Shown here: positions 5,035-27,556 of the stretch, in pieces
Numbering within the stretch: position 1 is the first letter of the stretch
Layout of the letters: every line of letters starts with the position of its first letter
Source: a virus
IMG/VR virus record: IMGVR_UViG_3300022750_000024
Location: 1-40,762 of that record
Length of the DNA: 40,762 nucleotides
Strand: one strand, 5' to 3'
The notes under the pieces: generated by a model
Told to the model about the DNA's origin: nothing
Seen by the model: only the letters and a program-made list of their open reading frames with translations
Database searches by the model: none
Position numbers and translations under genes: made by a program

Positions 5035-5051
5035 CGGCAGGGGGTGGACGG
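5035..5051 (-). promoter_or_regulatory. Late box copy F, upstream of the lysis cassette
   Basis: Matches the 17-nt box CCGTCCACCCCCCGTTT at 13/17 (the CCGTCCACCCCC part is intact). Twenty nt separate it from the holin ATG. This copy lies in a divergent intergenic region with no upstream gene stop on the same strand, so its spacing is tied to the downstream start codon and not to the gene behind it. Confidence 0.6.
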
Positions 5052-5114
5052 GGAAGCGTTCGCGGACCTAGACTCCTCCGGTCTTCGAGGAGACGACGTC
5101 AGGGAGGGCGGGCG

Positions 5115-5987
5115 ATGTCGGCAAGGATTGGCGTCAAGGCGGTCGAGGCAGAGGGGTTTCTGTTCGCCGTGTGCGGCGAGGAGACCGACCCTTATTTCCA
5201 GAACGCCCAGGAGTTCGCGCGAGAGAACCGCCTGATCCCGGCGGCGCTGAAGACGATGCGTCATGACGCGATCGTCGTCGACATCGGCGCCAATATCGGC
5301 GTCACCGTCAGCATGACGGCGGCCGCCCTGCCGCGTGCCCGCATCGTCGCCGTGGAGCCGTCACCCCGCGCACGGGTCTGCCTAGGCCGCACCGCCCTGC
5401 GCGCCGGGTTCGGCGAGCGCCTGACGATCGTCCAGGCCTGCATGGGCGCCGAGGGGGGCGAGGCCGGGTTCCATGAGGGGGCCAGCGCCTGCGCCAGCCA
5501 TGTTCAGCCCGGCGCGCCCATGGTCCCGATGACTACTCTGGACGCGACGTTCGACGCCCTGGCGCTTCCGCGCATCGACATGGTCAAGATCGACGTCGAG
5601 GGCTGGGAGATCGACGTCCTGCGGGGCGGCGCGCGGGCGCTGCTGGAAGGCGCTCCCCTAGTCATCGCCGAGATCAACACCTGGTCGCTGAACTGGAACC
5701 GTCGCCTGCCGCTCCGGGACATGATCGACTATCTTCGCCAGACGTTCGGCCTCGCCGCATGGGTCGAGGACGGCGAGCTGAGGATCGCCGAGAGCGACTT
5801 TGACTTCTACGCCCTGGCCTGGCGCATCGAACAGACCCGGGGCCTGGACGTCGTCTTTAGTCACGATCACGCCAAGGTCCGGGCCCTGGCGGCTCAGTTC
5901 ACCCAGTCGGGTGCGGGCGGCTCGGACGATAGCGCGGTCGCCGGGTTCGGCGCGTCGTCTGGCCAGCTCAGCAGAGCGGCTCTGTAA
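5115..5987 (+). CDS. FkbM-family SAM-dependent methyltransferase (moron)
   Basis: Protein of 290 aa from ATG 5115, preceded by GGGAGGGCGGG. SAM motif I is VDIGANIG (55-62), followed by VEPSP (80-84) and the family-typical KIDVEGWEIDVLRGG (158-172). FkbM enzymes O-methylate sugars or small molecules. In a prophage, such an enzyme could alter a surface glycan used as receptor. It lies between the tailspike and lysis genes on the strand opposite to the late operon, and its last 94 nt overlap the fibre-chaperone gene antisense. This looks like a lysogenic-conversion gene; the substrate is unknown. Confidence 0.88.
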   Translation: MSARIGVKAVEAEGFLFAVCGEETDPYFQNAQEFARENRLIPAALKTMRHDAIVVDIGANIGVTVSMTAAALPRARIVAVEPSPRARVCLGRTALRAGFGERLTIVQACMGAEGGEAGFHEGASACASHVQPGAPMVPMTTLDATFDALALPRIDMVKIDVEGWEIDVLRGGARALLEGAPLVIAEINTWSLNWNRRLPLRDMIDYLRQTFGLAAWVEDGELRIAESDFDFYALAWRIEQTRGLDVVFSHDHAKVRALAAQFTQSGAGGSDDSAVAGFGASSGQLSRAAL

Positions 5988-6334
5988 GCCAGAAGCTCGG
6001 ACTGTCGCTCAGGGCTCAGGTCGGCGAAACGAGGCGCGTTGGTCAGATAGGGGTCCACCCGCTGCGCCAGCAGTCGATCACGGACCCACCGTGGCCAGGG
6101 CAGGGGCCGGCCCATGATCGCGCCGCTCCAGTCTCCGGGCACGAAGGTTTCGCCGCGGGGCCCCATGTCGCCCGCGAAGCCGTGCACGATCGCGACGGCG
6201 ACATCGTTCGCCAGCAGCACGCCGTCGGCCCGCACGGGCTCAGGCGGAGACGGCTCGCTGGCGGCGGCCCTCAGGCGCTGTTCCATCTCGAGTATGCGAT
6301 CGAAGCGCATCTGACGGTTGGTTACGACAGCCAT
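5894..6334 (-). CDS. Probable tail-fibre/spike assembly chaperone
   Basis: Protein of 146 aa; ATG 6334 overlaps the tailspike stop by 13 nt. The N-terminal part has a helical RFDRILEMEQRLRAA segment. The C-terminal part reads LSPERQSELLAYRAALLSW and ends with a proline-rich PPAPDWVN. This ending (helix, Pro, Trp) is typical of tail-fibre assembly chaperones, which help fold the fibre encoded just upstream. The 3' end overlaps the FkbM gene on the other strand by 94 nt. Confidence 0.68.
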   Translation of the reverse strand: MAVVTNRQMRFDRILEMEQRLRAAASEPSPPEPVRADGVLLANDVAVAIVHGFAGDMGPRGETFVPGDWSGAIMGRPLPWPRWVRDRLLAQRVDPYLTNAPRFADLSPERQSELLAYRAALLSWPDDAPNPATALSSEPPAPDWVN

Positions 6335-8184
6335 GCAGAGACTTCCTTGCTCGCGGCGGCGGGGGCTCCGTTGATGATGTTCGTCGTCAGGTTTCCGCGC
6401 AGGTCCCCCCGGACGCGATAATGATTGTTTCCGGCGTCGATATAGACACCCACGCCGTTGCCGTTGAGACCGCGCCACGGCCCGCAGACCACGTCCATGT
6501 CGACGCCGTCCAGAGCACCGACGAGGGCGACACCGGTCCCTGCGTTCTGCGCCGCCCAACCCGAGATCTTTGCCTTGGTGATCGCGCCCGACAGGTTGAA
6601 CCCGTCCTGGGCGTTCAGGTGAGACTGGTGGTCAACGATGGCCAGCCCGTTGATCGAGCCGCCGCCGCTCGTCTCGGCTTTCACGCCGTAGCCCGTGGAG
6701 GCCGACGAGGTCCAGTCGCCCCGGAAGACGGCGCCGTTGATCTTGCCGCCCGCCGCCTTCAGATGGATCCCGGCATAGCCCGGATTGTCGTAATAGGTGC
6801 CTGAGCTGGTCAGGCTGTTCACTTCCTGCCCGGGGCCGGGATCAATCAGGACATCCACGTCCGCGCCGATGAACTGACAATCGCGAATGTTCAGGTCGCC
6901 ACAGTTGCGAAGGCGAAGGGCATGGGCCGGTCGGGCCGCAAGACTGTTTTCGGTCAGGACCTCGACCATCGACACCGCCAGGCCGCTGTCGAACTGGAAC
7001 AGCGTCGCTCCGGGCTTTCCGTCCCGGACGGTGATATCCTCCATGTAGATGACGCTGAGGTGGATGTTCGGATCCGCGTCGCCCTCGCAGATGAAGAAGT
7101 GATGCGGGTCTTGGGCGAGGAGGTTCGACATGACGAAGCGGGGCGCCAGACCGTTCCGCAGCCGGACATAACGACCGCCCGTCCGGGCCACTGCTGCGCT
7201 GATACGAAGGTCGTGGATCTCGGCGAAGTAGGACGAAACGTCGAAAACGTGATTGCTCGGATGGGTCGTTCGGACTTCAGTGCCCTCGCCGTCGCCCCGG
7301 ATGTGAAACGCGCCGGTGACGCCGATGGCCGATGAAAATCGGAACCGGCCTTCAGGAAAGCGGATACGTCCGCACTGGACGTTGAAGAACGATGTTTCCG
7401 TCGGCAGGTCGGCTTTGGCCGCCGCCCACGCCGTCTCGAAGACCGACGTAGGAACATCGCCCCAGTTGCGGATCGCGGCCCAGTACTGCCGGTCGATGAA
7501 GTCTGTGATCTCGTATTGCTGTTGCAGCTTCAGCTGCACCGGCGCCGGAAAGGATCCGGGCGCATCGCGCTGATAAAGGATCTCTTCCTGCGTCGCCCCC
7601 AGCGCCTCGCGCGCAGACGGCCCGTCCAGCGCCGTCAAGGCCTCGGCGAAGAACGGCGACACCGGCAGGCCGCCTACGGCGCCCTCGGCCGCAAACGCCT
7701 GGCCGCCCGCGTCCCAGGCGAAGAACCGGCCCTTGCGGGCATCCAGGGACGGCAAGGCGGCCGCCGTCTCGCCTTGCGGCAGAAGGAGTGAGCGGCCGAG
7801 GATGTCCCGATCCTCTTCGGCGATCCGCGTCAGGCGGTCCAGCGCCCGCTCCATGGCCCGCGGCTTGAAGCCCTGTGTATCCGGCAGGGCGAGCGATTGA
7901 CGGCGAGCCGTCCGGCGAGCCAGCACCAGCACCGATCCAGCGGTCCAGCCGCCAACAGGCACCGCCGCGCCGTACAGATTGACCGTTCCGCCGCCGGTCA
8001 GGGGATCGCTGGCTGTCAGGAGATAGTCGCTGACCGGGCTGAGGGCCGGACCTTCCCGGCCCTCCACAAGAACGGTCGCCACCACGTCCGCAGGGTCGGC
8101 ATAGGTCCAGCCCGTGGGAAACGGGCCGGTGGCCGTCCCGGTCAGCGTAAACGTCGAAATGGACGGCGCGGCGGTCGTGGTCAT
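6322..8184 (-). CDS. Tailspike with T7 fibre-like N-terminus and beta-helix body
   Basis: Protein of 620 aa. Residues about 1-125 resemble the N-terminal virion-binding domain of T7-type fibres (GWTYADPADVVATVLVEGRE, then VSDYLLTASDPLTGGGTVNL). From about residue 260 the sequence has short repeating units rich in G, N, D and V (RLRNCGDLNIRDCQFIGADV, IHLKAAGGKINGAVFRG) typical of a right-handed parallel beta-helix. It should bind, and possibly cleave, a surface polysaccharide. No catalytic residues can be assigned by eye. A late box ends 20 nt before its ATG. Confidence 0.88.
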   Translation of the reverse strand: MTTTAAPSISTFTLTGTATGPFPTGWTYADPADVVATVLVEGREGPALSPVSDYLLTASDPLTGGGTVNLYGAAVPVGGWTAGSVLVLARRTARRQSLALPDTQGFKPRAMERALDRLTRIAEEDRDILGRSLLLPQGETAAALPSLDARKGRFFAWDAGGQAFAAEGAVGGLPVSPFFAEALTALDGPSAREALGATQEEILYQRDAPGSFPAPVQLKLQQQYEITDFIDRQYWAAIRNWGDVPTSVFETAWAAAKADLPTETSFFNVQCGRIRFPEGRFRFSSAIGVTGAFHIRGDGEGTEVRTTHPSNHVFDVSSYFAEIHDLRISAAVARTGGRYVRLRNGLAPRFVMSNLLAQDPHHFFICEGDADPNIHLSVIYMEDITVRDGKPGATLFQFDSGLAVSMVEVLTENSLAARPAHALRLRNCGDLNIRDCQFIGADVDVLIDPGPGQEVNSLTSSGTYYDNPGYAGIHLKAAGGKINGAVFRGDWTSSASTGYGVKAETSGGGSINGLAIVDHQSHLNAQDGFNLSGAITKAKISGWAAQNAGTGVALVGALDGVDMDVVCGPWRGLNGNGVGVYIDAGNNHYRVRGDLRGNLTTNIINGAPAAASKEVSAWLS

Positions 8185-8204
8185 GCCCTACCGTCACGCG
8201 GGCG

Positions 8205-8221
8205 CAACGGGGGGTGGACGG
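8205..8221 (-). promoter_or_regulatory. Late box copy E, upstream of the tailspike
   Basis: 16/17 match to CCGTCCACCCCCCGTTT. It ends 20 nt before the tailspike ATG, and GGTAGGG in the leader can serve as the ribosome binding site. The stop of the preceding gene (8241-8243) is 20 nt behind it. Confidence 0.65.
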
Positions 8222-8240
8222 GCGCGGCGCTGCCCGACGG

Positions 8241-10970
8241 CTAGTCCGCCCCGATCGCTTCGCTGGGGCTGATAAAGAACCGGGCGTTCTCGGCCTTCTC
8301 GACCCGCTTTTCGTACCGCTTCACGCTGCCCGGCGACGCCGCCTCCTGCAGCCGGAACCACACCAGATAGTCCAGCGCCGCCCGGGTATAGAACAGGTTG
8401 ATCAGCGGGATATTGGCCTTGGCCGCTCCAATCAGCTTGGCCGGGATGTCCTTGATGTCGTCGGGATCCCCGCGCGTGGTCAGGTGGACAATGGACATCA
8501 GCCGCTCCAGCTCGCCGATGCTGGGCCCCATCATCGACCCGACGGTGAAGCCCAGTCCGTTCCGGTTCGCCTCGCCGAACAGCAGGTCGCCATAGATGCC
8601 CAGCCCGCCGCCTTGCAGCAGGCTGGCGATGAACAGGTCCCCGCCCTGGAACTTGCCGTCCTCGTCCATGAAGCCGCGCGGCTCGCGGCCCTTGACGATC
8701 TGTTTGGCCTGCAGCGAGGCATAGCCCAGCAGGGTGCTGGCCACGATGACGTGGGCGAGAAGGGCGACAGGCTTCTGGCCCGCATAGCCGCCCGCCGCCG
8801 GGACGACGTGGCGGCCCATGATCGCGGCGCTGAAGCTCCAGAACTGCGTCATCGCCCGCACGGCCTCGCCCCAGACGGTGCCCGGCCGGGTTCCGCGCGT
8901 GATCGCCACACGCTCGCGCGCCCGCGCCTCGGTCAGGGCGTCGTCCAGCACGCCGCCGACCATGGCCTGAAATCTGAGGCGCAGGTCCTCGCGCACCCGG
9001 CGCGCGCCCTCGGCCGTGGCGTCTTTGCCTGTCAGGCCGGCCCGCTTCAGCAGGTCCCGGTCGGTGATCCCGTCCAGGGCCTCGAACGTCCAGTAGCGGC
9101 GGCCTTCAGGCTCCGCGTTGTCCGCGACGGCCCCGGCGGTCTGCCTCAACGACTTCGCCTCCGGCCGGGCGGCCTCTGGCGCGATCAGGCCGCGTCGCGC
9201 CAGCTCCCAGTCGTCGGCGTCGATGCCGTACCGTTCCAGCGTCTCGCGCGTCCCGGCGTTCAGCGACGCCCACGGGTTCGAGGCCTCGGCCCCCAGATGC
9301 GCCGAATACATCTCGGCCACCCCGCGCCTCAGACCGTCCGACCAGGCCTCGAACAGATTGACCTTGTAGAACAGCCGTTGCGCTGATGCGGCCCACCCCA
9401 GCGGACCGTCCGCCGCATGGAAGCGGCCGGTCATGTGCGCCGCGGCCGATCGCGCGCCCACGTCCAGCAGGTCCGCCGCCGCCTTGCCCTCCGCGCCCTG
9501 CAACCGGACGATGCCCTTGAACGCCCCGGAATAGCCGTCCAGATAGCCGGCGCCCGCCCGCTTCATCACCTGGGCGGCCAGACTGGTGTCCGACAGGCCC
9601 GACAGCACCATCCCACCCAGCTTGGCCAGCGACTGCTGGACGCGGATCGACCGCCCGATGATGGCCAGCCTCAGGTTCTCTGGCGCGGATCCCGCCCCGG
9701 TCATCTCCTCGAACTCGGCCCGTCGCTGCGCGCTCATCAGCCGGTCCGCCGCGCCGCTGTCGCCCCGGCTGCGCGCCGCCGCGTGCAACTCGCCCACCTT
9801 GTTTGCGAACATGGCGTCGGGCGACGGCCCCCAGCGGTTCATCAGGGCCGCGTTCTTGGCCGCCCGTTCCAGCCCGCCCATGACATTGGCCAGCATAGAG
9901 CCGCGGCCGAACCGCTGGTGATAGTCGTACCACTGGTCCGGATGGCTGAAGTGCATGACCCGGTGTTTCGACACGCTGCGCGCCTTGGACGCTGGGGGGC
10001 GGAAATCCCCGATGTCGTCGGCCCCGCCCAGGATCTCGGACTTGCCCGACACGATGTCGAACCACATCCGGTACATCATGACCTCGCGCACGTTCGTCGC
10101 GTCGTCGATCGCCCCGCTGGCCTGCAGGGCCTTGGCGTCGTCCAGCCAGCCCTCGTCGAGGTCGCGCGCCTCGATCCCCTCGAACGTCTTGTCCGACAGC
10201 TTGGGCAGGGTGAAATCGCGCCACTCTCGGAACGCGCGGCGGCTGGCCCTCAGGCTGGCGCCCTTCATGTCCTTGATGGCGCCCAGCCCCCCGGCCTGGA
10301 ACTCGCGCCAGAAGCCGCCCGCCACCCTCAGCCGATCATGGGCCTGCCGGGCGATATAGCCTTCGATCCGACCGATCCACGCCCCGGCGTCGTTCTGCAT
10401 CAGCCGACCCTTCTCGGTCGCGGCGTTCAGGATCTCGGCGACCTTCAGGGCGTCGGCGTCGCCGGTCGGGGGGATGTCCTGCCCGTTCAGCCGCGCCATC
10501 TCGCGGCCCACGGCGCGCTCGAAATCATGGTCGACGCCGAACCCGCTCATCCGCTCCAGCAGGTCCGCCTCTCTCAGGCCCCGTTCGACATCGCCCCACA
10601 GGGCCACGGTCCGGGCCCGGCCCTCGGCGTCGACGCTGAAGGACCCGCCCAGCCCCTGTTTCTCGCTGCCGACGTTGAACGCCTTGAGCTTGTCGGCCTC
10701 GTCCCCGACAGCATCGCCCATCCCGGCCAGCAGGGCGTCGAAGTTGGCGCTGGCCCGCTGCGACGCGATCTTCAGCCGCCGTTCGGCCAGGCTCTCCAGC
10801 AGCCGCTCCTTCGTCAACTCGCCCGCCGCCTCGGTCATGGCCGCCTTGTCGAAGGCCTCGCCTCGCCGCTGCGCCTTGCGCAACAGTCGATCCAGCACGT
10901 CGTCGATCTGTTCGTCCGTGAAGGCGTCGCCTGTCGCCATGCGAACGGTCTGGTGGCAGGCGCGGGTCAT
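8241..10970 (-). CDS. Large internal virion (ejection) protein
   Basis: Protein of 909 aa; ATG 10970 is 1 nt past the upstream stop. It is mostly helical and charged, with Ala/Arg/Glu-rich stretches. One hydrophobic segment near residues 720-740 (VALLAHVIVASTLLGYASLQ) could cross a membrane. The size, and the place between a transglycosylase-bearing ejection protein and the tailspike, fit the C-terminal or partner part of a gp16-like DNA-ejection machine, split into two genes here. I recognise no enzyme motif. The role is inferred from synteny with T7-like phages. Confidence 0.75.
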   Translation of the reverse strand: MTRACHQTVRMATGDAFTDEQIDDVLDRLLRKAQRRGEAFDKAAMTEAAGELTKERLLESLAERRLKIASQRASANFDALLAGMGDAVGDEADKLKAFNVGSEKQGLGGSFSVDAEGRARTVALWGDVERGLREADLLERMSGFGVDHDFERAVGREMARLNGQDIPPTGDADALKVAEILNAATEKGRLMQNDAGAWIGRIEGYIARQAHDRLRVAGGFWREFQAGGLGAIKDMKGASLRASRRAFREWRDFTLPKLSDKTFEGIEARDLDEGWLDDAKALQASGAIDDATNVREVMMYRMWFDIVSGKSEILGGADDIGDFRPPASKARSVSKHRVMHFSHPDQWYDYHQRFGRGSMLANVMGGLERAAKNAALMNRWGPSPDAMFANKVGELHAAARSRGDSGAADRLMSAQRRAEFEEMTGAGSAPENLRLAIIGRSIRVQQSLAKLGGMVLSGLSDTSLAAQVMKRAGAGYLDGYSGAFKGIVRLQGAEGKAAADLLDVGARSAAAHMTGRFHAADGPLGWAASAQRLFYKVNLFEAWSDGLRRGVAEMYSAHLGAEASNPWASLNAGTRETLERYGIDADDWELARRGLIAPEAARPEAKSLRQTAGAVADNAEPEGRRYWTFEALDGITDRDLLKRAGLTGKDATAEGARRVREDLRLRFQAMVGGVLDDALTEARARERVAITRGTRPGTVWGEAVRAMTQFWSFSAAIMGRHVVPAAGGYAGQKPVALLAHVIVASTLLGYASLQAKQIVKGREPRGFMDEDGKFQGGDLFIASLLQGGGLGIYGDLLFGEANRNGLGFTVGSMMGPSIGELERLMSIVHLTTRGDPDDIKDIPAKLIGAAKANIPLINLFYTRAALDYLVWFRLQEAASPGSVKRYEKRVEKAENARFFISPSEAIGAD

Positions 10971-10971
10971 G

Positions 10972-11226
10972 TCAGGGCTTCGGGGGCTGCAGGGTGATGA
11001 CGAAGTCGGCGTGGATCAGGACGCCGCAGTCGCATTCGAACCCGCCGGGCTCGCGGATGCGCTGCACGCCGTCCGCGTCCTCGGCGAAGTCGAGGCTCCG
11101 CGTCAGCATGTGCGTTACGTCGCAGGCGGGACAGTCGAACTGGACCTGATCGGGGACGACGACCACGGCGGCGAGGGTTGCGGGGGCGTTAACAATTTTC
11201 ATGACGTCCACCAAAGTGCCCGTCAT
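10972..11226 (-). CDS. Small zinc-ribbon-like protein
   Basis: Protein of 84 aa; ATG 11226 overlaps the stop of the ejection-protein gene as ATGA. It contains FDCPACD and, about 35 residues later, FECDCGVLI, a CxxC...CxC pattern that could hold one zinc ion. The rest is beta-prone and hydrophobic. It is translated between two very large ejection proteins, so it is probably made late, but nothing shows whether it is in the virion. Function unknown. Confidence 0.68.
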   Translation of the reverse strand: MTGTLVDVMKIVNAPATLAAVVVVPDQVQFDCPACDVTHMLTRSLDFAEDADGVQRIREPGGFECDCGVLIHADFVITLQPPKP

Positions 11227-14171
11227 GCGACAAGATCGGACGCAAGGCAGAAGGCGGCCGCGCGGATCGCCTCCGCCACGGTGGACGGTTCTGTGGACTT
11301 GTCGAACGTTGGCATGTCGATGCCGTTGGCCTGCGCCAGCGCCTCGGTGTCCGCCAGCAGTGCCTTCAGCTCCGGATCGTCGGCGATGAGCGCGGCCAGC
11401 CGGGCCTCCGGTGTCAGCCGGCCGCCAACGTCCGCAGCCGGTGCGCGATCGCCTTGCCGTTCGCTCGCTCCGCCGGGTCGTTCGACGACGGGTTCAGCCG
11501 GTCGAAGGTCGAGGCCAGCAGGTTCAGCCTCTCGCGTCGTCCAGGCGGGCTCTGTTCCGCCGGCGTAGGCGAGGCCCCTTTGCCCTTCGCCTTCGGCAAG
11601 GGCGTAGCGGTTGCGGAGGGTTTCGAGGAAGGCGCGGCCATCGGGTTGAACTCCAAACAGATCGGGTCCGGCGGGCGTCGCGGCCGCGCCTCGGGCATAG
11701 TCTTTCAGGGCCTCGGCGATCCGGTCGGCCGCGCGTGGCTTCGTCATCGCCTCGTCGCGGAACATCAGCCGGATCAGAGCCTCGGTCTCGGGGCTGATCG
11801 CCTCGCCGCCGAACATGTCCGTCTGGCCCAGCCGGTCGCGGAACAGCTCGCCCACGCTCATGCGCGACGCCCGCGCTTCCCGCACCAGGGCGACCGCGCC
11901 CGTCAGGTTCTCGGTGATGTCCAGCCCGGCCGGCGCCTCGGCCCGCATCCGCGCCCAGGCGGGGGCGGCGTCGGCCAGGGCCTGACCGATGCCGCGCACA
12001 TTGGCGTCGGCCGTCTCGAACAGCGCCGCCGTCAGCGCCTCGTCGCCATAGGCGCGCTGTACCAGCGCCGCCTGCACCCGGGCCTTGCCCGACAGGCTCA
12101 GCGCCCCGGCCGCGTCGGTCAAGGCGTTGGCGTCGTTCGGCGCCACCCGGGATACGAACCCCTTCAGGAAAGGCCGGTTGCCGGCGGCGAAGGCGTCGTC
12201 GCCGTCGATCAGGCCCAGGGTGTCGGCGTCCAGCCGCCGCGCATCCGCCTTCGCCTGCTCCACGGGGCTGAAGCCCTCGGTCTGGCTGACGTTCAGCTCC
12301 CGCGCCATGTCCGCCCGCCCGGCGCCCGTCATCGGCTCCGACCGCATCCGCACCAGCACCGGCCGCTCGAACCCCGCCGTGTCGATCCCCTGCCGCGCCA
12401 GCTCGGCCTGGTACCGGCCCCACGCGTCCGTCCCGGTCATGGCGCTGCGCCTCAGGGCGATGGTCCGTCCGTTGCCGCTCTCGACCAGTCCGTCCGGGCT
12501 GACGATCGGCGCGCCCCCCGACGCGGCCTTGTCGCGCATCAGCAGGGCGGGGTTCAGATCCCGCTCGAGATTATAGTTCTCGGCCTGCGACCCCGCACGC
12601 GCCCGGTCGCGCGGCTGCAAGGCGGCGGGATAGGCGGCCTCGGGGTACAGGTCGTCGGTGTGGCTGGTTTTCAGGTCGCCCAGCTCGACGACGGCGAACC
12701 GCACCGGAATCTCCGACCCGCGCCGCGTCACCGCCGCATCGGCTTCCAGCCAGCGCCCCCGGATCGACGGCACGGCGCTGGCCTCGTCCAGCGCGTCCAG
12801 ACCGTTGCGCGCCAGCATGGCGCCCAGATCGACCGGCGCGTCCGCCGCGATGGCTTCCAGGCTTTCGGTGAACGCCCCCACGCGCTCGTTGTCGGTCAGG
12901 CCGTCGGTCGGGCGAGGAGGGCGGGGCGGGGTCAGGTCCTCGATCGACGCCCCCGACTGGTCGCCGCCCTGGCCGAACTTGCGCCGCCACTTCCCGGCGA
13001 ACTGCCCGGCCGTCATGTCGGCCCGCCCGCCGTTCAGGCGGATGGCCGCATCCGGATCGGCCACGCCGGCCGCCCTCAGGGCGTCGACCGCCGGACGGTT
13101 CGGATCGCGCAGCAACTCGAACGCACCGCCCTGGCCCTGCTGGTGGGCCAGATACAGCTCCCACTCCTGCGGCTCGCGCCCCAGCTGGCGGCGCAGGCCG
13201 GTGCGGTTCTCGGCCAGCAGGTCGATGCCGCGGCTGACGTTCAGGCTGGCGTCGAACGGATCGCCGCCGCCCATCCGCCGCCATGCGCTGCCCCTGCCAG
13301 TCAGAAACTGGAACACGCCCGAGGCCGAACTGGCCGGATTGTCCGCTCGCGGGTCCAGGCCACTCTCGATCTCCGCGATGCGCAGGGCTGTCGCGGGGTT
13401 CTCGCCCCGACGGCGGGCGGCCTCACCGATCAAATCCGCGACCCGCGCGGCGGATCCCGTGCGCCGCGCGGCGGGCGCTCGCGTCGGCGCAACGGCCCCG
13501 ACGCTGCCGCCGATCACCCCGCCCAGCGCCGTCCCGAAGACGATATTCCTCAAGGCGTCGCCGCCGGTGTAGTCCTCGCCGGTGCTCAACCGCGCGCCGG
13601 CGTTGATCGTCTCGGCCGCGACGCCCCCGGCCAGGCCGTCGATTACGCCCACGGCCGCGCCACGGGCGATATTCGCGCCTCGCGACCCTTGCGCCGCGAC
13701 GCCCAGGCCGCGCACGGCCGCCGATCCGCCGCCGATGAACCAGGTCGGCAGCATAACCGGATCGGTGGCGCCGCCGATCACCGACGCCCCGATGCTGTCC
13801 AGCGCGCTCAGATCGGCCCGCGCGGCCGTCTCCTCGCGGAAGCGACGCAACGTCGCCTGCCGGTTCATCTCGGCCGCACGGGTCTCATTCACCGGTTCGT
13901 CGAACTTCAGATGGCCCTCGACGCCATAGCGCTCATTCGCCTGCTCCGGCGTCAGGCGGTTGGCGTATTGCTCGCCGAAGACCCGGGCCTGCTGATCATC
14001 GAAGGCGCGCCGGTTGTCCGACTGGATGAAGCCCAGCACGCGGTCGGTGACCTGGCTCTCCTCGAACAGGGCGCGGCGGCCCTCGCGCGCCGAAACCTCG
14101 CCCGTCTCGATCAGCGCCGTCAGGTCGGCGTCCGACGCGGTCTGAGCGTTCTGGCGAAACGGATCTTGCAT
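11223..14171 (-). CDS. Internal virion protein with lytic transglycosylase and DdrB/ParB-like domains
   Basis: Protein of 982 aa from ATG 14171, with AGGGGG upstream. Residues about 120-230 contain glycine-rich hydrophobic stretches that may insert into membrane. Residues about 243-350 form an SLT-type transglycosylase domain: IAEIESGLDP with candidate catalytic Glu269, then ASGVFQFL. Residues about 488-740 resemble the ParB-superfamily domain found in phage DdrB-like antirestriction proteins (VVELGDLKTSH, then ESGNGRTIALRR, SPVEQAKADARRL). The protein would enter the cell with the DNA, cut the cell wall and perhaps protect incoming DNA. The last role is inferred. Confidence 0.85.
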   Translation of the reverse strand: MQDPFRQNAQTASDADLTALIETGEVSAREGRRALFEESQVTDRVLGFIQSDNRRAFDDQQARVFGEQYANRLTPEQANERYGVEGHLKFDEPVNETRAAEMNRQATLRRFREETAARADLSALDSIGASVIGGATDPVMLPTWFIGGGSAAVRGLGVAAQGSRGANIARGAAVGVIDGLAGGVAAETINAGARLSTGEDYTGGDALRNIVFGTALGGVIGGSVGAVAPTRAPAARRTGSAARVADLIGEAARRRGENPATALRIAEIESGLDPRADNPASSASGVFQFLTGRGSAWRRMGGGDPFDASLNVSRGIDLLAENRTGLRRQLGREPQEWELYLAHQQGQGGAFELLRDPNRPAVDALRAAGVADPDAAIRLNGGRADMTAGQFAGKWRRKFGQGGDQSGASIEDLTPPRPPRPTDGLTDNERVGAFTESLEAIAADAPVDLGAMLARNGLDALDEASAVPSIRGRWLEADAAVTRRGSEIPVRFAVVELGDLKTSHTDDLYPEAAYPAALQPRDRARAGSQAENYNLERDLNPALLMRDKAASGGAPIVSPDGLVESGNGRTIALRRSAMTGTDAWGRYQAELARQGIDTAGFERPVLVRMRSEPMTGAGRADMARELNVSQTEGFSPVEQAKADARRLDADTLGLIDGDDAFAAGNRPFLKGFVSRVAPNDANALTDAAGALSLSGKARVQAALVQRAYGDEALTAALFETADANVRGIGQALADAAPAWARMRAEAPAGLDITENLTGAVALVREARASRMSVGELFRDRLGQTDMFGGEAISPETEALIRLMFRDEAMTKPRAADRIAEALKDYARGAAATPAGPDLFGVQPDGRAFLETLRNRYALAEGEGQRGLAYAGGTEPAWTTREAEPAGLDLRPAEPVVERPGGASERQGDRAPAADVGGRLTPEARLAALIADDPELKALLADTEALAQANGIDMPTFDKSTEPSTVAEAIRAAAFCLASDLVA

Positions 14172-14192
14172 GGCGACAGGATCCCCCTGCCG

Positions 14193-14209
14193 AAACGGGG
14201 GGTGGACGG
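14193..14209 (-). promoter_or_regulatory. Late box copy D, upstream of the transglycosylase ejection protein
   Basis: Perfect 17-nt box. It begins 6 nt after the upstream stop codon (14216-14218) and ends 21 nt before ATG 14171, with AGGGGG in the leader. Confidence 0.7.
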
Positions 14210-19758: not shown

Positions 19759-19779
19759 GCCCCGATAGTCGGCCTGCCC

Positions 19780-19796
19780 AAACGGGGGGTGGACGG
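19780..19796 (-). promoter_or_regulatory. Late box copy C, upstream of tubular protein B
   Basis: Perfect 17-nt CCGTCCACCCCCCGTTT. It starts 4 nt after the stop of the tubular A gene (19801-19803) and ends 21 nt before ATG 19758. Confidence 0.7.
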
Positions 19797-19800
19797 ATGC

Positions 19801-20427: not shown

Positions 20428-20459
20428 GGGGCGGGAGAGGCGGCGACCCCTCCCGCCCC
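20428..20459 (-). terminator. Strong hairpin terminator after the capsid module
   Basis: GGGGCGGGAG (20428-20437) and CTCCCGCCCC (20450-20459) are perfect 10-bp complements with a 12-nt loop. On the transcribed minus strand the hairpin is followed by TTGTCATTT, a partial T-run. It lies between the capsid module and the tail-tube genes, as the T-phi terminator follows the capsid gene in T7, so it could reduce tail-gene expression relative to capsid. Confidence 0.65.
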
Positions 20460-20515
20460 CGATGCGGCGCGCTGTTAGACGAGCAATCCGGCGAGCGCGC
20501 CGATGGGGCGGCCCC

Positions 20516-21016
20516 TTACTGGGGCGAACCGTAGATCGACCAGGCGATAGTCCCGGCGCCGGGATTGCCGCCCTTCAGGGTGGCGCGCAGTTCGGCACGG
20601 CTGCCATCGGCCTTGGTGGCCTCCTTGGCGGCGCGAGCGGTCGCGTATCCGGCGAGCTGCCACAGAGGCTTGCGCCGGTTGGCGATGGCCACGGATTTCA
20701 GCAGCGAGACCGAGCCGGCCGCCGTAGCGACATCCTGGGCGGCGATCAGGCAGTCCGGATCGAGCGCAACGCCAACGTCCAACGTGATGGAGGTGCCCAT
20801 GTCGTCGAAGTCGATCGTGGAGATCGCGTCGAAGCGCGTGGTCCAATCCACATAGCCGAGGCTGATGTAATCGTCCTGGGCGACGTCGCCGGTGAAGTAA
20901 TCGCTCAGGATACGGGCCACGCGGCCGTTGCAGAAGTAGGGGTCGGTCAGCGAGCCAACCGCGCCGCTGTTCGCGGCGTGGGCGGCTCCGAGGATAGCGC
21001 CGATGAAGCGGGTCAT
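20516..21016 (-). CDS. Probable minor head/decoration protein
   Basis: Protein of 166 aa, ATG 21016 with AAGGGAAG upstream. It is made directly after the major capsid protein and before a strong hairpin, so it is probably made in large amounts. The sequence has SLTDPYFCNGRVARILSDY, then YVDWTTRFDAISTIDFDDM and SITLDVGVALDPDCLIAAQD. These suggest beta strands with a helical end. I do not recognise a family. Head decoration or stabilisation is inferred from position only. Confidence 0.7.
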   Translation of the reverse strand: MTRFIGAILGAAHAANSGAVGSLTDPYFCNGRVARILSDYFTGDVAQDDYISLGYVDWTTRFDAISTIDFDDMGTSITLDVGVALDPDCLIAAQDVATAAGSVSLLKSVAIANRRKPLWQLAGYATARAAKEATKADGSRAELRATLKGGNPGAGTIAWSIYGSPQ

Positions 21017-21117
21017 GGGTGTCTTCCCTTGTCATCACAGCGGCCTTTCAAGGTCCGCGGGCCTTTCGGCCAATCAGGAGAATGGGCCGATCCTTCAAGA
21101 CCGGCCCGGTTCAGCAG

Positions 21118-22062: not shown

Positions 22063-22083
22063 GGGCGCGCGCGCTCCTGCATT

Positions 22084-22110
22084 CGATGAAACGGGTCTGG
22101 TTTTTCATCG
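22084..22110 (-). promoter_or_regulatory. Hairpin in the capsid 5' leader
   Basis: CGATGAAA (22084-22091) and TTTCATCG (22103-22110) are perfect complements with an 11-nt loop, 21 nt upstream of the capsid ATG. It may protect the capsid mRNA 5' end or tune translation after cleavage between scaffold and capsid. No direct evidence for either. Confidence 0.45.
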
Positions 22111-22209
22111 GCTGCAGTCTCGGCCTGTTGCCGTGCGTGCCTGACGATGCGCTCGTCTGGGCGTCGTCTCCGGGCTCCGGCGCTTGCGCGGTCTCCGGCG
22201 AAGAGAATG

Positions 22210-22246
22210 GTTAACGGCTGAGGTGATTTGCCCCAGCCGTCAACCG
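22210..22246 (-). terminator. Hairpin between scaffold and capsid genes
   Basis: GGTTAACGGCTG (22210-22221) pairs with CAGCCGTCAACC (22235-22246) over 12 positions. The single mismatch becomes a G-U pair in the minus-strand transcript, so the RNA stem is unbroken. It starts 6 nt after the scaffold stop. A moderately pyrimidine-rich run (TTCTCTTC) follows. It could be an attenuator or an RNA-processing site. Confidence 0.5.
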
Positions 22247-22252
22247 CTATTT

Positions 22253-23266
22253 CTAGCTGACAGCGTCCGGGCGTTTTTCGCCGCGTTGCTGCGTCAGCAG
22301 AGCAGCGCGTTCAGCCAGGACCGCCGCATGTTGCGGATGCCCTTTGGTGTTCAGCGCCGTCATTTTCTCCCTGTCCGCGTAGAAGGCGTTGAGGGCCGCC
22401 TTGGCGGCTGCGGGCGTCAGCTGCCTCGTATCGCCTCCTGCATTCCCGCCGCCCGGCGCTTCCGGTTCGGCCATCTTGCCGACGGCGTGGGCGAGGATGC
22501 GGGCGAGGGTCAGGTTCGAGCCCAGCTTCGTCTCCAGCTCGGCCGCCGCCTCCTCCGCCGCCGCCGCCTTCGCCGCCGGATCCTTGATGTGGCCCAGGCT
22601 GGCGTCGATGCCTTCGCGGATCAGCTTGCCGATGGCCCGGACGTTGCCGTCATAGGCCGCGCCCTGTTCCTTCTTCAGCGTCGTGGTCACTTCCTCGGAC
22701 AGGGCGACCAGTTCGGCCTTTTCGGCCTCGGCCGCCTTCTGGCCCAGGCCGTTCAGGGTGTCGATCACGGCCGCCATCTGCGCAGGCTGGAACTTCGCCT
22801 TGCCGCCCAGCTCGCGCAGGATGCCTTCCAGCTCCGGCGTGTCCGCCGCCGCCTCGGGCGCCAGGGCGATGGCGTAATCCTTCGGATCCTCGGGCACGCC
22901 CAGGGCCTTATGGATCGGCGCCCAGTCCTCGGGGGCCTGGTCCTGCGGCTTCGACGGGATCTTCAGCAACTCGGCCGCCGTCGCGCCCTTCAGCTTCGTC
23001 AGATGCTGGTGCGCCTGGGCCAGGTCGTCTACCGACTTGTACCCGCGAAACAGCGGATCCTCGGCCAGCGCCTTGGGCAGCTTGTCCTGCCAAGGCGCAT
23101 CGTCGGTCGTGGTCGTGGTGGTAGAGGCGTTCGGGTCAGCCTGGGTCGTCGAAGCCTTGGGGTCCGACGACTGGGTCGTCTGCGCCGCCGGTGAAGTCGT
23201 CGTCGCCGAAGTCGACGCGGGGTCCGCCGTCGTGGTGGCGGTCGTTCCGCCCGTATCCGTGCTCAT
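22253..23266 (-). CDS. Capsid scaffolding protein
   Basis: Protein of 337 aa starting at ATG 23266 with a strong Shine-Dalgarno (AAGGAG). The first 50 residues are Thr/Ser/Ala low complexity. Then PWQDKLPKALAEDPLFRGYKS, VDDLAQAHQHL, KPQDQAPEDWAPIHKALGVPEDPKDY follow, a pattern typical of podovirus scaffolds. A long helical domain follows. It guides assembly of the capsid and leaves or is expelled before packaging. Its first 131 nt overlap the end of the Bbp19-like gene in a different frame. Confidence 0.88.
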   Translation of the reverse strand: MSTDTGGTTATTTADPASTSATTTSPAAQTTQSSDPKASTTQADPNASTTTTTTDDAPWQDKLPKALAEDPLFRGYKSVDDLAQAHQHLTKLKGATAAELLKIPSKPQDQAPEDWAPIHKALGVPEDPKDYAIALAPEAAADTPELEGILRELGGKAKFQPAQMAAVIDTLNGLGQKAAEAEKAELVALSEEVTTTLKKEQGAAYDGNVRAIGKLIREGIDASLGHIKDPAAKAAAAEEAAAELETKLGSNLTLARILAHAVGKMAEPEAPGGGNAGGDTRQLTPAAAKAALNAFYADREKMTALNTKGHPQHAAVLAERAALLTQQRGEKRPDAVS

Positions 23267-23597
23267 AGTCTGCTCCTTCAAGCGTTTGGGTCAGGCCCGC
23301 CGCCGCGATGGCGACCGGGTCGAAGCCGGCCAGATTGGCCATGGTCAGCACGGCGTAGCCGCGCCCGTTCTTGTGGTTGCTCTCCAGCGGGGTCTCGGCC
23401 GCGCGGGCGGCCCCGATCTCGCCGATGGTCGTCAGGGCGTGCAGCAGGACGACCCGGCCCAGCGCGGTGCCGAACGTCATCCGGTACGCCTCGCCGATGG
23501 CAACCGGATCGCCCCGCCGCACCTCGGCGATCAGCCGCGCGCTGTCGAACCCGCGTGCGGGCTCGAGTTCCGGGGTGTCGTCGGCGGCGTCGGTCAT
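23136..23597 (-). CDS. Bbp19-like phage protein
   Basis: Protein of 153 aa; ATG 23597 overlaps the upstream stop as ATGA. The middle has YRMTFGTALGRVVLLHALTTIG and later ESNHKNGRGYAVLTMANLAGFD, resembling the Bordetella phage BPP-1 Bbp19 group of small proteins encoded between portal and scaffold. The last 40 residues are Asp/Gly-rich and are encoded over the scaffold gene's start (131-nt overlap). That C-terminal tail may be a by-product of the overlap. Role unknown. Confidence 0.7.
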   Translation of the reverse strand: MTDAADDTPELEPARGFDSARLIAEVRRGDPVAIGEAYRMTFGTALGRVVLLHALTTIGEIGAARAAETPLESNHKNGRGYAVLTMANLAGFDPVAIAAAGLTQTLEGADYEHGYGRNDRHHDGGPRVDFGDDDFTGGADDPVVGPQGFDDPG

Positions 23598-23968
23598 CGC
23601 GCGCTTTCGTGCTCTGACAGTCGCGCATTGTGCAGGAGGACGATCTTGCTGACGGTTTGGTGGATGCCCTCGGCGTCGCCGAAGTGAGCGATCTGCTCAC
23701 CATGAAGGTCGAATGGCCCCGTCACCGCGCAGATCATGGAACCCCTGTCAGGGCCGCTTCCAAACCAGCGCTCGCGCCACTCCTTGCGGCCCAGCGCGAT
23801 GCTGTCGCGACAACTGTTGGCCTCGATCACATATGCGGAGATGTCGTCGATGTGCAGGGTGACGGTTTCCGCATTCGCCTCTTTGGCTGCATCGATCGCC
23901 TGATCCACCCGGATCAGGGCTCCGACCAAGCCCATGCGGTCAGTTCGGGGTAACTTCAGCTTGCTCAA
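23594..23968 (-). CDS. Hypothetical protein of the head module
   Basis: Protein of 124 aa with a TTG start at 23968, supported by AGGAG 8 nt upstream. It contains GALIRVDQAIDAAKEANAE, then VTLHIDDISAYVIEANSCRD and VSKIVLLHNARL. The layout looks like alternating helix and strand. It sits 15 nt after the portal stop and is coupled (ATGA) to the Bbp19-like gene. Unknown function; somewhat lower GC than its neighbours, so it may be a later addition. Confidence 0.68.
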   Translation of the reverse strand: MSKLKLPRTDRMGLVGALIRVDQAIDAAKEANAETVTLHIDDISAYVIEANSCRDSIALGRKEWRERWFGSGPDRGSMICAVTGPFDLHGEQIAHFGDAEGIHQTVSKIVLLHNARLSEHESAR

Positions 23969-23983
23969 GGCCTGTCTCCTTCA

Positions 23984-25705
23984 TTACGCCGCCATGCGGG
24001 GTTGCTGTCCGGCGTTCTCGATCGAGGCCATGCCCTGGCCGGCGTCGCGCAGCGCGGTCGCCTCGGCGGTCATGGTCTCGTTTTCCTGCTGCTGGGCCTG
24101 CGCCTCGGCGCGCGCGGCGGCCTTCTCGGCCACCACGGTGCGGCTGTTGATCATGCCCGGGGCGTTGCCCAGGCTGTCGTTGATCGTGCGCAGCACCTCA
24201 TGCACGGCGACGATGTCGCTGGCGGTGTCGTCGAACTGTTTGGCCGTCGCCGCGGCGTCCATCAGCCTCAGGGCGCCGTCCACCTGGGTCAGCATCTGCG
24301 CCTTGGCCAGCGGCCCGGCGTAATCCCAGTCGACATCGACGGCCGACAGGGCCGGCGGCGGCGCGGGAACCAGATCCTCCTCGATCAGGGCGGACAGGCC
24401 CCGGTCGGCGCCCTTGCCGAACAGGTCGCGGTCGAACGCCGGGACCAGGAACGACAGGGCCCGCGTGCGCAGGTCGCGCCGTTCCCGGATCTCCTCGGCC
24501 GTGACGTTGGCCGCATCCCTCAGATTGGTGAAGTTGCCGAAGAACACCTTCTCGATATTGTCCGTCAGCCGCTCGCACCGGCGCTCGGCCCAGCTGGGGT
24601 CGCCGGCCACGTCCATCTTCTGGACGGCGTCCTTCATCGACTGGAAGCCCAGGTTGACGGGGTCGTAGGTGTTCACCGCGCCCGGGCGCCGGTCCAGCCG
24701 GTTGCCGAACAGGCGCGTCGGGGCGAACGACACCGGGTCGTTCAACAGGTCGATGGCCCGTTCCATCCCGCCCGAGAAGTGGTTCAGGGCCATGGCGTCG
24801 GGCAGGGCGTCGAACCCCAGCCCGGTGCGATACGGACTGCCCTCCCAGGCGTCCATTCCGGCCACCTGATAGGGGAAGCTGTCGTACCCTTCCTCCTTGA
24901 TCTCGAAGAAGTCATGACCGGGCAGCAGCGTCAGGCTGGCGAAGGGTTTGTTGGTCGCCACCGCGCCGGCCACGCCGCCGTCGCGAGGCTGGACCAGGTG
25001 CAGAACCTCGACCTCCGTCCGGGCCTTGGCGTCATCCTTGGCCAGCTCGGCGATCTTCGGGTGATCCAGCGCCAGCGGATAGGTCTGGACCAGCCGCCAG
25101 ACAGGCAGACGCCAGCGGCGGAACAGGGTGTCGACCTCGTCGGCCTCGTTCCGCATCCACCAGCAGCTGCGCAGCGGCATGTGCTGATAGCGCGGGCCGA
25201 AACCGCGCTTGCGGCCCGTCCACTGGACGCAGTTGCCGAACGCCAGGAACTCGAGGCCGCACCGCACCGTCGCCGGCACGAACCCGGACTGGGGCAGCAT
25301 CTGCGCATCGAAATACTGCCAGCGCAGATCGTCCAGATAGTCGCGGCTGGCGTCGTCCAGCTCCAGCTTCCGGCCATCCGGACCCTTGGTCCAGATCGCG
25401 CGACCGCTCAGCGCCATGCCCCGGTTGACGTTCGGGGCGAGAAAGGGCGCGGTGACGTCGATCGCATAGGCGACGAACAGGGCCGCCGCCTGTTTCAGGT
25501 TCTGGCGCGGCGTGTTGGTCACGATCCGGCGCGCGCGGCGCACCACGGGCTGGGTCGCCGTCACCGTGAAGTTGGTCGACGGATAGAAATAGTCGCTGAC
25601 CATCTGCCAGCCGGGCTCGAACGCACGCCGCTGCTGCTGGCTGTCCTCCCAGCTATTGCGGATGTTCCGCCCGCGCTTCGAAAGGGTCGGCATGGCGGCC
25701 GTCAT
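23984..25705 (-). CDS. Portal protein (head-tail connector)
   Basis: Protein of 573 aa. It opens with RGRNIRNSWEDSQQQRRAFEPGWQ and VSDYFYPSTNF. Later come NRAIDLLNDP-like ERAIDLLNDPVSFAPTRLF and WAERRCERLTDNIEKVFFGNF, and VTAEEIRERRDLRTRALSFL. These mark podovirus connectors, which form the 12-subunit ring at one head vertex where DNA enters and leaves. The C-terminal region is helical and Gln/Ala-rich (barrel). ATG 25705 is 1 nt past the preceding stop. Confidence 0.9.
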   Translation of the reverse strand: MTAAMPTLSKRGRNIRNSWEDSQQQRRAFEPGWQMVSDYFYPSTNFTVTATQPVVRRARRIVTNTPRQNLKQAAALFVAYAIDVTAPFLAPNVNRGMALSGRAIWTKGPDGRKLELDDASRDYLDDLRWQYFDAQMLPQSGFVPATVRCGLEFLAFGNCVQWTGRKRGFGPRYQHMPLRSCWWMRNEADEVDTLFRRWRLPVWRLVQTYPLALDHPKIAELAKDDAKARTEVEVLHLVQPRDGGVAGAVATNKPFASLTLLPGHDFFEIKEEGYDSFPYQVAGMDAWEGSPYRTGLGFDALPDAMALNHFSGGMERAIDLLNDPVSFAPTRLFGNRLDRRPGAVNTYDPVNLGFQSMKDAVQKMDVAGDPSWAERRCERLTDNIEKVFFGNFTNLRDAANVTAEEIRERRDLRTRALSFLVPAFDRDLFGKGADRGLSALIEEDLVPAPPPALSAVDVDWDYAGPLAKAQMLTQVDGALRLMDAAATAKQFDDTASDIVAVHEVLRTINDSLGNAPGMINSRTVVAEKAAARAEAQAQQQENETMTAEATALRDAGQGMASIENAGQQPRMAA

Positions 25706-25706
25706 G

Positions 25707-25898
25707 TCAGCCCACGCCCGTCAGGGTCGGCGCAGGCGCCGCCGTGGCCGCCGTGGCGACGGCTTCGCTCAGGAAGGTCGAGGCCCTCCCGCCCGTCGCC
25801 AGGCGCTTCTTGCGGACCTGGTCGATGCGGTTGGCCGTATCGGCCGGATCGACCGGACGAGGCGGGGCGGCGACCTTCTGACGGCGGAGAAAGCTCAT
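25707..25898 (-). CDS. Small virion/assembly protein (gp7.3- or gp6.7-like position)
   Basis: Protein of 63 aa: basic N-terminus (MSFLRRQKV), Pro-rich linker, RIDQVRKKRLATGGRASTF and a Thr/Leu/Gly C-terminus (PTLTGVG). Short proteins with a KRLA-x-GG-R motif and a TLLG-like end are encoded next to portal genes in many podoviruses, where they act in tail or core assembly. The assignment is by pattern and place. A late box ends 21 nt before the ATG. Confidence 0.68.
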   Translation of the reverse strand: MSFLRRQKVAAPPRPVDPADTANRIDQVRKKRLATGGRASTFLSEAVATAATAAPAPTLTGVG

Positions 25899-25919
25899 GC
25901 TCGCACCATCGTGCGGGCG

Positions 25920-25936
25920 AAACCGGGGGGGGACGG
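25920..25936 (-). promoter_or_regulatory. Late box copy B, upstream of the portal unit
   Basis: 15/17 match to the late box. It lies 1 nt after the terminase stop (25938-25940) and ends 21 nt before ATG 25898. Confidence 0.65.
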
Positions 25937-25937
25937 G

Positions 25938-27488
25938 TCAGTCAAAGACCACCTCGACCACATTGCTGGCGCCGGGGCTGTCCAGACCCATGGTCGGCAA
26001 CAGCCCGGCCCGGTCCTCGATCCCCTCGCCGCCCAGGCACATGTACTCACAGGCCTCGCCCACCGATGAATACTCGTTCTTCTTGGCCGAGGTGGAGGTG
26101 ACGTTGGCCTTTTTCGGGTAGTGAAAGCCGCCGTTCAGCGCCGTGTTCAGCCAGACGCACGACGGGTCAGACAGGAAGCCGCCCCGACGCTTCAGCGGCC
26201 GCGCCAGCGCCGTCCGCCTCAGCTTCGTGTCGTTCGATGGCGCCGGAACGGTCGTGATGCGCGTCCGCTGCTGCAGCTCCCCGATCCACGACAGTTGCTT
26301 GTTCATGGTCGAGCGGCTCTTGCCGGCCGGGTCGGCGACGATGATCGCCCGCTTGCAGCGCGGGAACCGGGTCTTCATCGTGCTCAGGATCGCATCGGCA
26401 AAGCCGATCACGTCAAGCTCGCCGTCAGGCGCGTCCTCGGCCACGACCTCGGCGAACACCCGCCACTGGCCGAACAGGCTGCGCTGGCCGAACACGGCCG
26501 CACCCTTGAAGTCGACGTCGACGCCGATGATCACCGCCAGTTCGGGATCCGGCTCCATGGTCTGAGGGCTGACGTGGGCAGTCTCGTCGAACGCCCCGTG
26601 CACCGGCGTCCCCATCCGGCCGTAGGTCAGCTTGCACTGCAGCAGGCGGGCGACGTCGTGGGCCTCCATCCGGGCGGCCATGGACCGGTAGTAGTAGGGG
26701 TCGATCTTGGCCAGGTTGGCCTTGTTCTCCGCACCTGGGTGAAAGCCGTCGGCCGTGTCGGGGTCGTAGCCCGGCGGCTGTTTGTGCAGGGCGAAGCTGT
26801 TGTCGTTCGCGGCGCTGTAATAGTCCTTCTGGAACCAGCTGCCGATCGTCGGCGTGTTCGCGTCGCCCCAGACGCCCATATAGGCCTTGCTGGGCGGATT
26901 GTCGGGCCGGTCGTCGGGCTCCGGATAGCGCCCTACCCGGTTGGCGCAGTACGACAGGATGCTGGACTGCACATGGGTGTCCACCTCGGGCAGCCAGAAG
27001 GCCGTGCATTCCTTCCCCCGGAAGAACTCGTCCAGGTCGACGTCCTGCACCGCGCGAAAGCGCACCTCGACCTCGACCGGGCCCAGACCGTCCGGACCCG
27101 CCCCCAGCATCTGGAACACATGGTCGGCCGGGTCGCCCTTGGCCCCCTTCCACGAGGCCCGCGTGCCGTTGTCGTTCGCCGGGTTCTCCTTCACCAGCGG
27201 CTGGTCGGTCTCCTTCACGAAGACTTTCAGATACGACGGGATCACGCTGTCCCAGGCGATCCGGTACGTCGGGCAGACCACATAGATGCGGGCTCGACGC
27301 CACCCGTCACGCGGACTAGGGTGCTGCCAGAGAGCAGTCCGGAGACAGCGGCGCGCCGCGGCAATCGTCTTGCCGCCGCCCGTTGGCCCCACAATGAAAG
27401 CAAGCTGCGACCGGTCGAACTCGAACCGGCGCGCGACCGGCCCGGCGAAGTTCCACGCCCGGCGTTCGACCTTCGCAACCGCAGACAT
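25938..27488 (-). CDS. Terminase large subunit
   Basis: Protein of 516 aa from ATG 27488; an in-frame stop lies just upstream and GAGGG is the probable ribosome binding site. Walker A is GPTGGGKT (34-41). The C-terminal nuclease region has IIGVDVDFKGAAVFGQ and AIIVADPAGKSRS, which carry the expected metal-binding aspartates. It packages DNA into the prohead with ATP and cuts concatemers. The gene lies between the small subunit and the portal. A late box is present but 51 nt away rather than 21. Confidence 0.93.
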   Translation of the reverse strand: MSAVAKVERRAWNFAGPVARRFEFDRSQLAFIVGPTGGGKTIAAARRCLRTALWQHPSPRDGWRRARIYVVCPTYRIAWDSVIPSYLKVFVKETDQPLVKENPANDNGTRASWKGAKGDPADHVFQMLGAGPDGLGPVEVEVRFRAVQDVDLDEFFRGKECTAFWLPEVDTHVQSSILSYCANRVGRYPEPDDRPDNPPSKAYMGVWGDANTPTIGSWFQKDYYSAANDNSFALHKQPPGYDPDTADGFHPGAENKANLAKIDPYYYRSMAARMEAHDVARLLQCKLTYGRMGTPVHGAFDETAHVSPQTMEPDPELAVIIGVDVDFKGAAVFGQRSLFGQWRVFAEVVAEDAPDGELDVIGFADAILSTMKTRFPRCKRAIIVADPAGKSRSTMNKQLSWIGELQQRTRITTVPAPSNDTKLRRTALARPLKRRGGFLSDPSCVWLNTALNGGFHYPKKANVTSTSAKKNEYSSVGEACEYMCLGGEGIEDRAGLLPTMGLDSPGASNVVEVVFD

Positions 27489-27539
27489 CCGAAACCCTCA
27501 CCCTGACCCTTCGCGTCGGAATGAGTTTCGGCCGTGCCC

Positions 27540-27556
27540 AAACGGGGGGTGGACGG
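27540..27556 (-). promoter_or_regulatory. Late box copy A, upstream of terminase large subunit
   Basis: Perfect 17-nt box, with 51 nt between it and the terminase ATG. A more degenerate C-rich relative with CCCCCGTTTT lies at about 27611-27630. Confidence 0.65.

Follow-up and report, generated by a model that had tools for sequence, protein, structure and literature searches.

The window analyzed here, the whole 40,762-base IMG/VR virus record IMGVR_UViG_3300022750_000024, carries a complete tRNA-Lys at positions 50-126 and a repeat of the 3' part of this tRNA (an att site) near 40636-40680 at its right end, and because of these two features the record is taken to span a tRNA-integrated prophage. 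The right att flank is 100% identical over 46 nt to DNA of the bacterial genome G293, and the host is probably an alphaproteobacterium of the Caulobacteraceae. Virion genes of the epsilon15/phiV10/BcepC6B/HTVC010P type are accompanied by a primase, a helicase-like protein, an integrase match, and a cI/LexA-like repressor of the lysogeny switch (34968-35762, plus strand). The late genes lie on the minus strand, from the large terminase subunit gene (TerL; ATG at 27488) down to lysis at about 4,200, and are punctuated by six copies of a 17-bp box that are, very probably, elements of late promoters, a reading based on their sequence context in this and related phages.

Three copies on the late strand are perfect (CCGTCCACCCCCCGTTT) and precede TerL (27540-27556), the gene for tail tubular protein B (19780-19796), and the gene for a transglycosylase ejection protein (14193-14209). 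The copy before the tailspike gene (CCGTCCACCCCCCGTTG, 8205-8221) matches at 16/17 positions, the one before a 63-aa gene and the portal (CCGTCCCCCCCCGGTTT, 25920-25936) at 15/17, and a weak copy before a lysis gene (CCGTCCACCCCCTGCCG, 5035-5051) at 13/17, with four mismatches. From box to ATG there are 21 nt for the ATGs at 25898, 19758, and 14171, 20 nt for the tailspike (8184) and lysis (5014), and 51 nt for TerL. The original prediction had described these six sites on the late strand, their match counts, their 20 to 21 nt spacing in five copies and 51 nt for TerL, and their place directly ahead of a late unit, all of which was recovered exactly, as was its remark that no same-strand gene lies behind the lysis copy, where the interval from tailspike to lysis holds an FkbM-type methyltransferase gene on the plus strand (5115-5987), opposite the late genes. 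With up to three mismatches allowed, the window holds six matches compared with 0.19 expected from shuffled sequence, and none of 100 shuffles reached six; the sixth of these matches is a chance plus-strand site at 10645, the lysis copy, with its four mismatches, falling outside this count. A profile scan using the box plus the downstream 15 nt ranked all six late sites among its seven best. Apart from these, a single site exceeds 12 bits: a partial, box-like sequence on the plus strand at 33691 (17.7 bits), inside a gene for a 238-aa protein considered below. This sequence is either a chance match or an operator or origin site. The exact 17-mer has no occurrence in IMG/VR. A CCGT-N7-CCGT direct repeat within the box might have marked a dimer site, an idea dropped because relatives do not keep the repeat.

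Each window box is followed on the minus strand by a hexamer resembling a -10 element: GAAACT (27524-27529) 10 nt after the TerL box; GATGGT (25905-25910), GACTAT (19765-19770), and GATCCT (14178-14183), each 6 nt before its ATG; and GACGGT (8190-8195) and CATGGT (5020-5025), each 5 nt before its ATG. When the pattern NANNNT was counted at every offset from 0 to 39 downstream of the box, it was present at offset 9 in 5/6 window boxes and at any other offset in at most 2. For the 22 boxes of group A, which comprises the window phage (G000) and the relatives G001, G003, and G004, the corresponding values were 18 boxes and at most 4. Against a background of 0.021-0.026 per position, the binomial probability for the window is 7e-8, to be multiplied by 40 for the number of offsets tried, and that for the 22 boxes is about 1e-25, the latter being overstated since the copies are related. 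The A at the second and the T at the sixth position are the best conserved bases of the bacterial (sigma70) -10 element. The hexamer lies 6 nt, at times 5, ahead of the ATG in nearly all non-TerL copies of the four phages, and 5-7 nt ahead in the ATG-sited copies of the more distant phages in G002, G005, G521, G532, G424, and G627. Given the 5-6 nt between hexamer and ATG, a start at the standard distance from the -10 would coincide with the A of the start codon, which explains the fixed distance between box and start codon, so that the earlier remark that the spacing follows the downstream gene finds its account in leaderless starts, which the hexamer spacing predicts as likely. At the place of the -35 element, there is no TTGACA-like sequence but the box itself, and therefore an activator-dependent variant of a sigma70 promoter is proposed.

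The TerL copy is informative in this respect, as its ATG lies 30 nt further on while the distance from box to hexamer is kept within one nt, and its leader of about 30 nt contains a strong Shine-Dalgarno sequence, AGGGTGAGGG, before the ATG at 27488. TerL of five phages (G000, G001, G003, G004, and G005) retains the box with an A-containing hexamer (NANNNT in four of them and CAAAAC in G004) and an AGGGTCRGGG-like Shine-Dalgarno sequence in the leader. Since TerL keeps box and hexamer while the ATG moves, the conserved module is box plus hexamer rather than box plus ATG, which favors transcription over translation. As for ribosome binding elsewhere, Shine-Dalgarno sequences are weak before many unboxed genes too, and strong before only a few genes, TerL included.

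The original prediction had proposed looking for the box at the same gene borders in related prophages, and the idea survived this comparison. Scans with the portal or TerL as single proteins found no relatives; these were found with an alignment of the 909-aa virion protein together with distant phages, after which the full records were taken. The 909-aa protein has four IMG/VR relatives at 55-73% identity, plus more distant ones. The same box type occurs in five copies in G001, five in G003, and six in G004, at the borders of TerL, the 63-aa gene before the portal, tail tubular protein B, the transglycosylase, and the tailspike; the sixth G004 box, from the profile list, belongs to the neighborhood of the 909-aa virion gene or to one of the shared border genes. 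None of these three phages has a box before lysis, and there the lysis genes directly follow a same-strand gene. In the window, the plus-strand FkbM gene would impede transcription running on into lysis, where a promoter close by therefore makes sense, and the lysis box looks newly gained with the FkbM insert. Among the four closest phages, copies within a genome agree at 14.5/17 positions versus 13.1/17 between orthologous copies of different genomes, a difference that 2/5000 label shuffles reach. Concerted change of this kind would be expected of phages that each encode a box reader of their own, and recombination among copies could contribute.

The same geometry is found with other boxes in more distant phages, including prophages in G521, G532, G541, G627, and G424 that came from a search of 390 genomes in the family to which G293 belongs. 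A de novo motif search with 16-mers found nothing in the distant relatives, where the boxes are shorter, and these boxes were instead found by eye at the gene borders. There are five copies of TTTATCCRCG in G002, two copies of TTTATCC in G521 and one in G532, four copies of TCATCCGACGC in G005, two of GTAATCCGCC in G006, two of (T/A)TACCGTCC in G541 (read by eye), three of TAACCCCCCC in G627, and three of GGTCCCAAARCGCC in G424, these last with TATGAT, TAACAT, and TACACT 18 nt downstream. By a scripted count, NANNNT lies 22-26 nt from the reference base of the box in 17/17 boxes of G002, G005, G006, G521, G532, and G627, so that the A and T that mark a sigma70 -10 element at positions two and six, some 6 nt upstream of the predicted start, are present in 18/22 boxes of group A, in 17/17 of these six genomes, and, as TANNNT, in 3/3 of G424. 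Most of the distant copies precede tail tubular protein B, a post-virion gene, the 63-aa gene, or TerL. Box sequence thus varies from phage to phage and is uniform within each. No box was recognized in G009, which is about 30% identical.

When the boxes of twelve phages are registered with the -10 hexamer, their consensus is (T/C)(T/C)ATCCRCC, which agrees at most positions with the DnaA box, TTATCCACA. The likeness is closest in the distant phages: TTATCCACG of G002 and TTATCCACC of G532 match at 8/9 positions, and boxes of G002, G521, and G532 range from 7 to 8/9, whereas the window box in this register, CCGTCCACC, agrees at 5/9, departing at the TTA and the last base, with its first three differences being transitions. 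Against the pattern TTWTNCACA, the scores were likewise 8/9 in G002 and G532 and 4-5/9 in the window group. Unlike DnaA boxes, which are clustered at the origin, the phage box would be a single promoter site at about -37 to -29.

The window encodes a candidate for the protein that would read the box. A 238-aa protein (33420-34136, minus strand) matches helix-turn-helix and DnaA profiles of Pfam and PDB weakly; in NCBIfam, its highest-scoring model, ahead of DnaA, is NF004688/PRK06030, at 24 bits, below the curated cut-off of 136. In three host genomes, the NF004688 protein is encoded immediately before a host gene that also specifies 238 aa and that is a DUF6456 gene in one of them, DUF6456 being the annotation of GafA/GafZ-type proteins (PMC9638019). 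Caulobacter crescentus has the same order of gafY and gafZ, and GafY is homologous to DnaA domain IV (PMC9632790). A hidden Markov model built from the host GafY proteins finds the phage proteins at E-values of 5e-13 (G002), 9e-9 (G541), 6e-8 (G004), 1.5e-7 (window), 2.4e-7 (G003), and 3e-6 (G627), with the next unrelated frame at 0.005, and profile-profile alignment by hhalign of the phage protein with GafY gives a probability of 97% and an E-value of 2e-11. In the AlphaFold model, pLDDT is mostly 74-95 for the C-terminal part, from about residue 125 onward, and the N-terminal half is poor. In Foldseek, the top 11 PDB matches are all DnaA, the best being the DnaA DNA-binding domain with DNA (3pvp, TMt 0.80), and the list includes DnaA domain IV with a DnaA box (TMt 0.76); none of the Foldseek E-values falls below 0.001, and it is the agreement among the hits that supports the fold. 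The protein thus shares with the GafY family a homologous helix-turn-helix like that of DnaA domain IV (residues about 137-231) and a helical tail, and, judged by sequence, it is a distant GafY relative and not an orthologue. No GafZ (DUF6456) was found in G000, G002, G003, or G004, while it is present in the hosts G521 and G532. In C. crescentus, GafY binds domains 3-4 of RpoD and aids the polymerase at promoters of the gene transfer agent (GTA) that have a degenerate -35 (PMC11150451), and leaderless mRNAs are common in that organism, with 375 on record (PMC4117421).

We therefore favor, with a probability of roughly 0.6 for the model as a whole, a reading in which each box would form the upstream half of a late promoter and cover its -35. 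The NANNNT hexamer would serve as the -10, contacted by host RNA polymerase carrying the housekeeping sigma70, and the -35 hexamer would be replaced by a phage-specific box derived from the DnaA box and centered near -30 in the window. A phage-encoded activator would bind this box and recruit the sigma70 polymerase, and for this role the 238-aa protein is, by a modest margin over even odds, our predicted reader. Transcription would start at the A of the ATG and produce leaderless mRNAs for the 63-aa gene and portal, tail tubular protein B, the transglycosylase, the tailspike, and lysis, and the TerL transcript would have its leader of about 30 nt and a Shine-Dalgarno sequence.

Several points weigh against this model. 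Group A boxes match the DnaA box at only 4-5/9 positions. The true letter order of the DnaA box ranks within the top 4 of 1680 permutations, but the boxes were put in register with it by eye and, for some phages, shifted by 1-2 nt, so that this rank is optimistic. The final T is missing in 3/22 group A hexamers. The G424 protein matches the host GafY model weakly (E 0.005), and the comparison of 238-aa proteins leaves out G001, G005, and G006, whose records do not contain the early region. In C. crescentus, GafY acts from about -120 together with IHF rather than over the -35, although a position over the -35 is usual for such activators and GafY departs from it, as the authors of the GafY study note (PMC11150451).

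The 238-aa gene also directly precedes those for the primase and the helicase, and its product could be a replication initiator. This leads to the alternative that survives best, a possible but clearly less likely one, in which the late promoters are the same, the 238-aa protein starts phage DNA replication, and the box is read by another factor, such as an AT-hook/TerS-like 180-aa protein (27702-28244, minus strand), a 118-aa protein (34300-34656), a sigma-appropriating protein, or a divergent phage sigma. Several early proteins are indeed without known function, and the 180-aa protein, which contains the AT-hook-like motif GRPKGS, is kept in nearly all relatives and is encoded directly before the first late box; it is probably the small terminase subunit, though it has no family match. 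Nevertheless, the 238-aa protein is the only DNA-binding protein of the DnaA/GafY type, the boxes resemble DnaA boxes, and no box iterons, which would suit an initiator, were found in or near its gene. A reader supplied wholly by the host, whether an alternative sigma, DnaA, or GafY, is improbable. The boxes of G002, G521, and G532 are near the DnaA box, and a host GafY exists, but the boxes vary from phage to phage (for example, CCGTCCACCCC in the window phage and TTATCCACG in G002), with the copies in any one genome changing in concert, the boxes of group A lack the TTA of the DnaA box, and the strict window-type pattern of box, hexamer, and ATG was found in 0/388 genomes of the probable host family.

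An element acting at the RNA level, be it a processing site, a translation leader, or the target of a regulatory RNA, is less probable still. Its C-rich composition, its closeness to the start codon, and the constant ATG spacing in five copies would suit such an element, but TerL keeps box and hexamer and not that spacing, the hexamer fits a -10 and not a ribosome site, and the promoter model puts the box ahead of the 5' end of the transcript. RNAalifold found no consensus RNA pair in the 22-copy alignment, although some single copies look foldable. Of the three options left by the original prediction, the promoter is thus the one supported, by the -10-like hexamer, the conserved borders, and TerL, and the processing site and translation leader are disfavored. 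Its analogy with T7-type late promoters and a phage RNA polymerase fails, for although the 17-nt box is followed by GGG in several copies and the unit-border layout fits, no single-subunit RNA polymerase (RNA_pol domain) was found in the window, as had been remarked, or in G001-G005, by a search in which the T7 record gave a clear hit, and T7 promoters have no counterpart of the downstream NANNNT, which points to host sigma70.

Activator-dependent late promoters are a known kind in phages, and what would be new here is the predicted leaderless layout, the DnaA-box-like site at the -35, and the proposed GafY-type reader. In T4 middle promoters, with their MotA box, and in lambda CII promoters, a phage activator site replaces the -35 with the host -10 at a fixed spacing, as in the arrangement proposed here, although the proteins and boxes are other ones and CII acts on lysogeny genes. 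T7, T3, and SP6 similarly repeat a late promoter at unit borders in genome-specific variants, but they require a phage RNA polymerase, which was not found here. To our knowledge, the late switch of epsilon15/HTVC010P-like temperate podoviruses without their own RNA polymerase is largely undescribed. The Mu C protein, which activates several late promoters for the host polymerase (PMC4461284), offers the same division between phage activator and host enzyme, with a different site and a protein that is unrelated as far as known. The closest parallels are GafY/GafZ of the C. crescentus GTA and GafA of the Rhodobacter capsulatus GTA, which share the activator family with a DnaA-domain-IV-like fold, sigma70 promoters with a degenerate -35, late phage-derived structural genes, and an alphaproteobacterial host (PMC11150451, PMC9632790, PMC9638019, PMC6363796). 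The C. crescentus GTA differs in having GafY at about -120 with IHF, one long cluster, antitermination by GafZ, and a 250-nt 5' leader, whereas in the phages the box covers the -35, each unit has its own promoter, the mRNAs are predicted to be leaderless, no GafZ/DUF6456 was found in the phage records, and an additional N-terminal half is present in the 238-aa protein.

No description of this promoter type was found in the open-access literature, and we consider it an even chance that these phages use an undescribed form of late regulation, with a DnaA-domain-IV/GafY-like phage activator, fast-diversifying DnaA-box-like sites at the -35, and several leaderless virion and lysis mRNAs. Such regulation may show that GafY and GafA, the master regulators of GTAs, descend from phages. 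The proposal amounts to an exactly testable promoter (box, -10, and start at the ATG) in at least 12 phages, with naturally matched pairs of activator and box for studying how DnaA-type domains recognize DNA, and it suggests that major virion genes are expressed from leaderless mRNAs in phages of these hosts. It also indicates a possible phage source for GafY and GafA, which control GTAs across the Alphaproteobacteria, and, if the reader is confirmed, GTA control would be tied to a living phage regulator.

Some further features of the window and its relatives deserve mention. A PAPS-reductase-like gene (32485-33426, minus strand) lies in the replication operon and is present in G003, whereas G004 has only a fragment-like match. 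Near the left end, an open reading frame at 700-1224 (minus strand) has a weak cysteine-dioxygenase-like PHROG match. The transglycosylase ejection protein (11223-14171, minus strand) also contains a ddrB-like ParB domain. Homologues of the 909-aa virion protein in G627 (contig C7, 198036-200534) and G424 (contig C1, 503321-505756) match in several pieces within a single open frame, as a result of insertions or of segments that have diverged from the window protein.

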